From assembly GCA_015233155.1 (NCBI GenBank), contig JADFYG010000016.1, positions 1-64,000 on the forward strand: DNA of 64,000 nucleotides, read 5' to 3'. The position numbers and the translations under genes are program-made. Below the pieces are notes generated by a model. It ran no database searches, had not been told where the DNA came from, and saw only the letters and a program-made list of their open reading frames with translations. Shown here one piece after another: positions 42,994 to 53,648 of this stretch (position 1 is its first letter; each line of letters starts with the position of its first letter). This stretch comes from Candidatus Rifleibacteriota bacterium. GTDB taxonomy: Bacteria > Muiribacteriota > Ozemobacteria > Ozemobacterales > Ozemobacteraceae.

Positions 42994-43266
42994 ATGAGCA
43001 GAAAAGCCCCTTACGTTGAAGAACGGTTAATGAAGCGAATTGAAACCATGAACAAGGCTGGTGAGAAGCGCCAGATTCGTACATGGTCTCGAAGGTCTAC
43101 CGTTTATCCCGTCATGGTCGGTCACACGATCGCCGTCCACAATGGACGGAAGCACGTTCCGGTGTTTATCACCGAGAACATGGTTGGTCACAAGCTGGGC
43201 GAGTTCGCCCCCACACGGACCTTCCGCAGCCACGCCGCCAGCGAAAAATCCGCGGCGTTGAAGTAG
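42994..43266 (+). CDS. rpsS: 30S ribosomal protein S19
   Basis: 90 residues beginning [16 protein letters not shown], with the core [19 protein letters not shown] and [14 protein letters not shown]. It pairs with S13 in the 30S head and bridges to the 50S. It sits 16 nt after rplB; the extended rplV begins 10 nt after its stop. Confidence 0.96.
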
Positions 43267-43276
43267 GAGAAGAACC

Positions 43277-43912
43277 ATGTTGCGACTCGTCGGCGTGAAT
43301 ATTCCTGATGATGTTGATGTTTTCAGTGGTCTGCGCATGATAAAAGGGCTGGAGACCAAACACAGCCGCAATAACATTGAGCGCGTTCTTACCAAAGCCG
43401 GTCTTTACACCAAGAAAATGGAAAAGTCCGGTAAGTTTGTAAAAGAGTATCCTAAAGTCGGCTCCCTCACCTGGAAAGAAAAAGCCCGGTTGATCGAGTT
43501 GCTTGAAATGCCTCGCGCGGTTCTTACCGGCATTCGCATGAGTCCCCGCAAGCTTCGTCTGGTTGCCGATGTCGTTCGCGGCAAGCATGTCGATATGGCT
43601 CTCGGTCTGCTCAAGTTCATGCCCCAGGCCGCCGCTCCTGTTCTTCACAAGTTGCTGAAGTCTGCTATCGCCAATGCCGGGAACAACCATCAGCTCAAGG
43701 CTGACGATTTATATGTCGCCAAGATCATGGTTGATGGTGGACCCACAATGCGTCGCTTTATGGCCCGTGCCCGCGGACGTGCCTGTCGGATTCGCAAGCG
43801 GACTTCCCAGGCAGTAATCGTTCTCCGTGAAAAGTTTGTTGCTCCGAAGAAGGTCAAGGGAACGGCAGAAGCCGCCACCAGCGTTGCCAACCCCAAAGAG
43901 GGAGGAAAGTAA
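43277..43912 (+). CDS. rplV: 50S ribosomal protein L22 with N-terminal S13-like domain
   Basis: 211 residues where ~110 is normal. Residues ~78-190 are a standard L22 (MPRAVLTGIRMSPRKLRLVA, PTMRRFMARARGRACRIRKR). The first ~77 residues resemble the N-terminal H2TH domain of S13. MLRLVGVNIPDD aligns without gaps to [12 protein letters not shown] of the S13 in this window, with ten identities in the first 24 positions by hand count. SLTWKEKARLIELLE matches the S13 'LTEEE..LR..IE' helix. The long form is real: GGAGAAG sits six bases before ATG 43277 and only 10 nt separate it from rpsS. The internal ATG 43508 has no Shine-Dalgarno. L22 lines the exit tunnel; the domain would project from its N-terminus. 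Confidence 0.95.
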   Translation: MLRLVGVNIPDDVDVFSGLRMIKGLETKHSRNNIERVLTKAGLYTKKMEKSGKFVKEYPKVGSLTWKEKARLIELLEMPRAVLTGIRMSPRKLRLVADVVRGKHVDMALGLLKFMPQAAAPVLHKLLKSAIANAGNNHQLKADDLYVAKIMVDGGPTMRRFMARARGRACRIRKRTSQAVIVLREKFVAPKKVKGTAEAATSVANPKEGGK

Positions 43913-45054: not shown

Positions 45055-45690
45055 ATGAAAAATCGTGAAAATTTTACTGAACTGAACGAGACGGAGTTGG
45101 AAGACAAGTACCGTCATTTCAAGGAAGAGTTGTTCAATCTGCGCTTTCAGGTAGTCACTGGCCAGTTGGCGAATCCCTCGCGAATTTCTCTTGTCAAGAA
45201 AAATATTGCCCGGGTTCGCACGCAGATCAATAAAATCCAGAAGGGTCGCGTTCGTGAGCAGCTCAAGGCTGAGTACACCACCATGATCACTTCTAAAGGC
45301 ATTGATCCGATGCGTGTACCTTTGAAAGATCGCCTGAGCATGCTTAAAGCGCAGCTTTCAACTAAAGCGCAGAAGGTTCGCCGCGAAATTCGCTCCGAGC
45401 TCGACGGCAAAATGAGCGAACTGCTTAAGTCCATTCGCCACCAGATTTCCGAGAAGTTGAAAAAAGATAATGGTGGCAAGGAAGAGACTGCATTACGTGC
45501 TGCATCCAAGCGGTTGCGTGATCCCAAGTTTCAGGTCAGGAAGAAGTTCCTTGACAAATTGTCTGGGATGGGATTAAATGAAGCCTCTCAAATCAAGTCT
45601 CTCAAGGATGCCAAGCGGGCCAAACTGAGCGACCTGGAAATGATTCGTACCCTTCAGCTCGAACTGACCTTCAGTCGGCTGCCGTTTTAA
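45055..45690 (+). CDS. rpmC: 50S ribosomal protein L29 with long C-terminal helical extension
   Basis: 211 residues, about three times the usual 60-70. Residues ~1-65 are a complete L29 (LNETELEDKYRHFKEELFNL, RFQVVTGQLANPSRI, KKNIARVRTQINK). The remaining ~145 residues are lysine/arginine- and glutamate-rich and predicted helical (LKAQLSTKAQKVRREIRSEL, MSELLKSIRHQISEKLKKD, LSGMGLNEASQIKSLKD, ending LELTFSRLPF). I recognise no domain there. L29 sits beside the tunnel exit next to L23, so the extension would lie near nascent chains, SRP or translocon. No frameshift or internal stop joins the parts. rpsQ follows after 16 nt. Confidence 0.93.
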   Translation: MKNRENFTELNETELEDKYRHFKEELFNLRFQVVTGQLANPSRISLVKKNIARVRTQINKIQKGRVREQLKAEYTTMITSKGIDPMRVPLKDRLSMLKAQLSTKAQKVRREIRSELDGKMSELLKSIRHQISEKLKKDNGGKEETALRAASKRLRDPKFQVRKKFLDKLSGMGLNEASQIKSLKDAKRAKLSDLEMIRTLQLELTFSRLPF

Positions 45691-53285: not shown

Positions 53286-53648
53286 ATGGCGCGCATAGCA
53301 GGTGTTGATCTGCCGCGGGACAAGCGGGTTGAAGCCGCTCTTCCTTACATTTACGGTATTGGTTTGACTCGTTCACGCGAAATTCTCACCAAGACCAAGA
53401 TCAATCCGGATACCCGGGTTAAGAATCTTACTGAAGATGAGATAAGTCTCATCAAGCAGACGATTGATCGTGATTATCGCGTCGAGGGTGACCTCCGCCG
53501 TGAAGTCGCCATGTCTATCAAAAGGTTGATGGATATTGGTTGTTATCGTGGGCTTCGCCACCGCAAGGGCCTTCCTGTTCGCGGCCAGCGCACGAAAACC
53601 AATGCTCGTACCCGTAAGGGTCCCCGAAAGGGTGCCGGGAAGAAGTAA
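53286..53648 (+). CDS. rpsM: 30S ribosomal protein S13
   Basis: 120 residues: [20 protein letters not shown], the H2TH motif around [16 protein letters not shown], and the basic tail [20 protein letters not shown]. Contacts P-site tRNA and forms bridges with L5. It is full length, so the S13-like domain fused to L22 is an additional copy, not a relocation. Confidence 0.97.

Follow-up and report, generated by a model that had tools for sequence, protein, structure and literature searches.

The L22 gene of this locus raises the question of where the 77 residues that precede its L22 domain come from, and what they might do on the ribosome. The window (the whole stretch of 64,000 nucleotides that was analyzed) belongs to a draft genome of 185 contigs, 84% complete, which we compared with other genomes (G numbers) of its own family (f1) and of other families of the same phylum (f2–f8). 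An ORF check confirmed that rplV occupies positions 43277–43912 (+) and encodes 211 amino acids. Its neighbors, taken to be rpsS (S19; ORF 42994..43266, +) upstream and rpsC (S3), lie in an otherwise ordinary ribosomal-protein cluster, in which a Pfam scan covered L22, L29, L24, S13, and RpoA. The same S19–L22–S3 order was found by BLAST in the relatives G005, G009, and G028.

L22 proper comprises residues 78–211 (43508..43912, +), as delimited by a Pfam L22 match over residues 82–184 (E = 5.9e-36) and by a structural model in which the C-terminal tail is of low confidence. The protein exceeds the cut-offs of both L22 family models (PF00237, 123.2 bits versus 28; TIGR01044, 123.1 bits versus 73.65). 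Most L22 proteins of f1 (L005, L007–L023) carry long alanine-/lysine-rich C-terminal tails, many of which end in QGGK or AGGK, in some cases followed by a final E.

The N-terminal extension (residues 1–77; 43277..43507, +) is homologous to residues 1–60 of ribosomal protein S13, as indicated by profile and shuffle evidence, and is present in all 21 L22 proteins of the family. The first-pass annotation had recognized this resemblance from ten identities with the S13 of the same genome (M1, R3, G6, V7, P10, D12, V15, L19, I22, and G24), and these are exactly the set that an ungapped alignment of the first 26 residues yields. The gapless alignment claimed there holds for these 26 residues only; the full match of extension residues 1–76 to S13 residues 1–60 takes two insertions of about 4 and 12 residues (∼16 in total). 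Similarly, the stretch SLTWKEKARLIELLE does align with a 14-residue stretch of S13, which is presumably the third helix of S13 and not the second as had been proposed.

When the extension was aligned with its own S13, the score was 42.5, compared with a mean of −5.2 and a maximum of 28.5 for 2000 shuffles. An hhalign comparison of extension residues 1–76 with S13 residues 1–60 gave a score of 41.4 (probability 92.9), whereas 200 column shuffles of S13 averaged 11.8 (SD 2.25, maximum 19.9) and 200 shuffles of the extension reached at most 20.9. A profile built from the 21 f1 extensions was searched against all PDB chains, and all eight matches up to E = 10 were S13 proteins aligned from residue 1, although each match is individually insignificant (E = 0.36–1.3). 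Addition of the extension of G028, a genome of family f6 described below, gave a second profile (A2). Its PDB search returned 48 matches with E ≤ 10, of which 47 were to S13 and the best had E = 7.8e-4. In 381 genomes searched with A2, the 47 matches with E ≤ 0.01 consisted of 22 L22 fusions and 25 S13 genes, of which 7 overlap Pfam S13 matches and the remaining 18 were all confirmed separately. At the looser threshold of E = 1, 23 of the 45 rows from the 39 genomes of the phylum lay outside the L22 fusions; 16 of these were S13 and 7 were not.

Searches with single sequences gave a weaker signal. The best NCBIfam model for the extension of the window alone was uS13_bact (E = 0.027), a model matched by 6 of the 22 fusion members, and a query with all 211 residues of the protein gave no S13 hit up to E = 1. 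The Pfam S13 model matched none of the f1 extensions individually and only one of the 22 members, that of G028. In Pfam, weak and unrelated families ranked first for single extensions, most often Qn_am_d_aIII (14 of 22 members, best E = 0.0052). These weak single-sequence scores for f1, together with a weak Foldseek result (see below), are what could suggest that a short helical peptide resembles S13 by chance. The shuffles, the PDB and whole-genome searches, and the occurrence in a second family are all contrary to such a chance resemblance; we have rejected it and give it next to no chance. A profile search, in which the first-pass annotation had seen a possible refutation of its reading, thus found S13, and the profile, whole-genome, and relatives' evidence agree.

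The extension is not a complete S13. The window protein gives no Pfam S13 hit, and G028 reaches 24.3 bits against a cut-off of 31; the part of S13 from about residue 61 on, its C-terminal half, is missing, with the alignment ending at S13 residue 60/61, where L22 follows. We are highly confident that the extension is an N-terminal piece of S13 (its H2TH piece) fused in frame with L22. A complete rpsM lies downstream of rplV, as had been annotated (53286..53648, +; Pfam S13 E = 2.7e-34), and the extension derives from the family of this protein. Because S13 itself is intact, the piece was duplicated and not moved, and a scenario in which S13 lost its own N terminus was rejected. Ranked by closeness to the extension among 43 S13 proteins, the genome's own S13 is 13th for the window and 14th for G028. 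Neither extension is thus especially close to its own S13, so that neither own S13 stands out as the donor.

AlphaFold2 predicts the 77 residues from the single sequence with a pLDDT of 86.9 and a pTM of 0.72. The model features two short strands and helices at residues 15–20, 25–28, 31–40, and 66–76, which is the order of elements in S13, plus a hairpin (residues 45–57) within a lysine-rich insertion (about residues 45–58; 43409..43450, +). This insertion, placed by alignment and model, is predicted to form a β-hairpin and precedes the last helix of the S13-like piece; it is longer in G004, G012, G014, G018, and G020 and absent from G028. In a model of the full-length protein (pLDDT 77.8), for which the alignment contained no other extensions, the last helix (43466..43507, +) spans residues 66–77 and ends two residues ahead of the first L22 strand, which starts at residue 80. 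In a Foldseek search with the 77-residue model, no match had an E value of 0.001 or below, and S13 was absent from the best 50 of 379 rows. The highest probabilities among these 50 rows (0.66 and 0.60) belonged to a topoisomerase subunit (1mx0), with TM scores of 0.52 and 0.56 normalized to query length and no aligned range given. We take this protein to be topoisomerase VI-B, which presumably carries an H2TH domain related to S13. As judged from the models, the extension probably assumes an S13-like H2TH fold.

In a rival reading, the extension would be absent from the mature protein, owing to a start at codon 78 or to cleavage. The first-pass annotation had placed a good Shine-Dalgarno sequence at the long start only. 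Indeed, an AGGAG (43265..43269, +) that overlaps the stop codon of rpsS precedes the long start of the window, and the same motif lies ahead of the long start in all 21 family members, three of which (G014, G018, and G020) start 7–9 residues farther upstream. Codon 78 is ATG in 15 of the 21 members, including the window, as a shorter protein would require, but it is ATC or ATT in the other six, and no AGGAG occurs within the 20 bases before it. For cleavage, eukaryotes offer a parallel: the fusions of ubiquitin to the ribosomal proteins S27a and L40 are cleaved. Excerpts of the literature describe such ubiquitin–ribosomal protein fusions as being made as precursors (PMC10296562).

Strong purifying selection on residues 1–77 argues against both routes to a shorter protein. 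The fusion was present in each of the 21 f1 genomes in which L22 was found, out of 24 examined. All 20 L22 matches from the 23 other f1 genomes aligned from residue 1 or 2; the genomes without an L22 match (G001, G006, and G019) are 64–79% complete. Compared with the window, the f1 members are 64–77% identical over the extension and 57–81% over 54 core residues. Over 210 pairs, the extension has a median pN/pS of 0.26 and the 54 core codons have one of 0.28, indicating that purifying selection is as strong on the extension as on L22. We consider an absent extension highly improbable. An assembly or frameshift artifact was likewise ruled out, since the same frame is kept in 21 family genomes. 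Judged from sequence comparison, selection has kept an S13 piece on the front end of L22 in one small bacterial group.

A search for the fusion in related genomes, suggested in the first-pass annotation, found it in the 21 f1 genomes and additionally in G028, the sole genome of f6. There, the Pfam S13 model struck the start of the L22 gene with E = 7.5e-4 in a search of 142 genomes. When the G028 protein was compared with 24,736 Pfam models up to E = 10, only two matched, L22 (E = 2.8e-37) and S13 (E = 4.5e-5). The G028 extension comprises 62 residues that align with S13 without gaps, at most 23 of the 62 being identical to any of 42 S13 proteins. It is more S13-like than that of f1 and shares its junction as well as S19 and S3 as neighbors: in both, the S13 match stops at residue 60–61 and is followed by a proline and a spacer of equal length leading into L22. 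A direct hhalign comparison of the f1 and G028 extensions yields no match (probability 0.3), and a BLAST match of the G028 protein to the f1 genome G002 reaches back to query residue 42, inside the G028 extension.

Across the phylum, with 39 genomes compared, the fusion thus occurs in 21 of the 24 f1 genomes (the other three have no L22 match) and in the sole f6 genome, whereas 14 genomes of six other families possess L22 without it. The A2 profile, which was used for the whole-genome searches in place of the f1-only profile, detected no fusion in the 342 of 381 genomes outside the phylum at E = 0.01. The sensitivity of this search is limited: at this threshold, A2 detects even genuine S13 genes in no more than 25 of the 381 genomes, so that diverged fusions could be missed. 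With the G028 protein as query against 386 genomes, none of the matches listed, which do not include second matches from six genomes, starts before query residue 23, and those with the lowest starts, in G136 and G357, run through stop codons. As the known fusion of G002 was matched only from residue 42, the sensitivity of this search is low. L22 proteins of f5 (L076, L077, and L085), f7 (L078–L080), and f8 (L081) possess N-terminal stretches of their own, about 26–43 residues from the likely start (about 43 in f5). These other N-terminal parts in the phylum are not S13-like and gave no A2 match. The differing stretches across families indicate that the N-terminal end of L22 is variable in this phylum.

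In a quick tree (LG+G4) of concatenated cluster proteins from 19 genomes, f1 groups with f3, f7, and f8, and f6 groups with f2, f4, and f5 (SH-aLRT 96 and 99). Constraining f1 and f6 together was rejected (AU p = 0.004), and with it a single origin in an f1+f6 clade, although this result is weakened by the tested group having been chosen after the tree was seen and by the odd amino-acid composition of G028. Consequently, either two fusions occurred, or one old fusion was followed by three or more losses. The latter is favored by the shared junction, whereas the weak similarity between the f1 and G028 extensions favors two fusions. Two independent S13-to-L22 fusions in one small phylum would mean that a domain of the 30S head had been reused convergently on the solvent face of the 50S subunit, with the H2TH module serving as a useful clamp or landing pad near the nascent-chain exit; we regard this as a tentative idea and rather doubtful.

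How might the S13-like domain function on L22? In the overall explanation that we favor on balance, the gene encodes a two-domain protein in which a duplicated S13 segment (residues 1–60) directly precedes L22 in the same reading frame. This chain would be made and kept whole and would enter the 50S subunit as part of L22. There, the S13-like domain would be docked on the solvent face next to the tunnel rim, near helices H2, H24, and H46 of 23S rRNA, and could serve as an additional structural clamp for rRNA or a neighboring protein, with S13's own contacts no longer being made. In excerpts of the relevant reports, L22, L23, L24, and L29 surround the peptide exit (PMC5071890), and the N-terminal extension of uL22 in Cutibacterium acnes anchors H2, H24, H46, and the tip of H19 of 23S rRNA (PMC10085706). 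By analogy with the C. acnes extension, the S13-like domain should sit solvent-side against those helices. The excess of Lys and Arg over Asp and Glu in all 21 f1 extensions and a conserved K-x-Y-P-(K/L)-V stretch that closes the f1 insertion fit an rRNA clamp. The extension of G028, on the other hand, is net acidic (8 Lys and Arg, 11 Asp and Glu), which argues against an RNA clamp shared by both families. In four genomes searched for a 23S rRNA gene, none was found. Docking of the extension as an rRNA clamp is a role toward which we lean only slightly.

The piece could instead be a regulatory or assembly mimic that binds an RNA site in competition with S13 and thereby couples 30S and 50S production. 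In favor of this, the piece has its origin in S13, and the cluster also contains an intact S13 gene, yet the C-terminal part of S13 is missing and the conserved insertion of f1 is unlike S13; such a mimic seems decidedly unlikely.

Two further proteins of the cluster show unusual features. L29 (45055–45690) possesses a C-terminal extension of ∼145 residues (45262–45687), which is present in the seven f1 genomes compared and is 48–60% identical to the window in four other f1 genomes; representatives of seven other families have at most 28 residues after the L29 match. Searches of PDB and NCBIfam gave no clear relative of this extension, the 10 weak PDB matches being YajQ (best E = 0.0084) and otherwise apolipoprotein E helices. 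L24 (46384–46737) ends with two CxxC pairs (CGKC and CKEC), a possible zinc ribbon, with only weak Pfam zinc-finger matches.

Instead of mainly clamping rRNA, the extension of L22 might recruit a tunnel-exit factor, that is, a chaperone, a targeting factor, or a modification factor. L22 borders the exit, and altered exit proteins of the chloroplast have been proposed to reflect the recruitment of biogenesis factors, as stated in excerpts of the same source (PMC5071890). Moreover, the ∼145-residue addition found in f1 is placed on L29, another rim protein. However, G028 possesses the L22 fusion without the L29 addition; factor recruitment is a candidate role that we think unlikely. A duplicated S13 segment on L22, docked on the 50S subunit as a clamp, continues to be our preferred reading.

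The fusion is a conserved and testable change next to the peptide exit. Extensions of ribosomal proteins are common; here, the source of one is evident, namely a second ribosomal protein that belongs to the other subunit. This suggests that core ribosomal proteins can acquire domains when stretches of other proteins from their own gene cluster are copied onto them. The first-pass annotation had considered such a fusion undescribed, and among the matches listed in a search of the open-access literature (titles and abstract openings) we found neither an S13–L22 fusion nor a piece of one ribosomal protein placed on another across subunits.

Long L22 extensions and one fusion of L22 with an unknown following part are already known. 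The N-terminal segment of uS13 (PF00416, TIGR03631) is the closest counterpart to the extension, since extension residues 1–76 align end to end with S13 residues 1–60 and the G028 extension aligns without gaps over 62 residues. Unlike uS13, the L22 extension contains nothing of S13 past residue 60, carries ∼16 inserted residues in f1, and is joined to a 50S protein. The terminal extensions of uL22 in C. acnes (PMC10085706) and in the spinach chloroplast (PMC5071890) are likewise added segments, at the N terminus in C. acnes, but they are not related to another ribosomal protein as far as excerpts of these reports describe them. The NCBIfam family NF008917 (“L22/unknown domain fusion protein”) also combines L22 with another segment, and its L22 part matches the window with E = 4.8e-25, although the 88 bits obtained fall short of the cut-off of 526. 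The match covers model positions 4–111 of 311, indicating that the extra part of NF008917 follows L22, whereas the one described here precedes it. Finally, ubiquitin fused to S27a and L40 in eukaryotes resembles the fusion in that a domain is joined in frame with a ribosomal protein, as given in excerpts of PMC10296562, but ubiquitin is not itself a ribosomal protein, whereas the domain joined to L22 derives from one.
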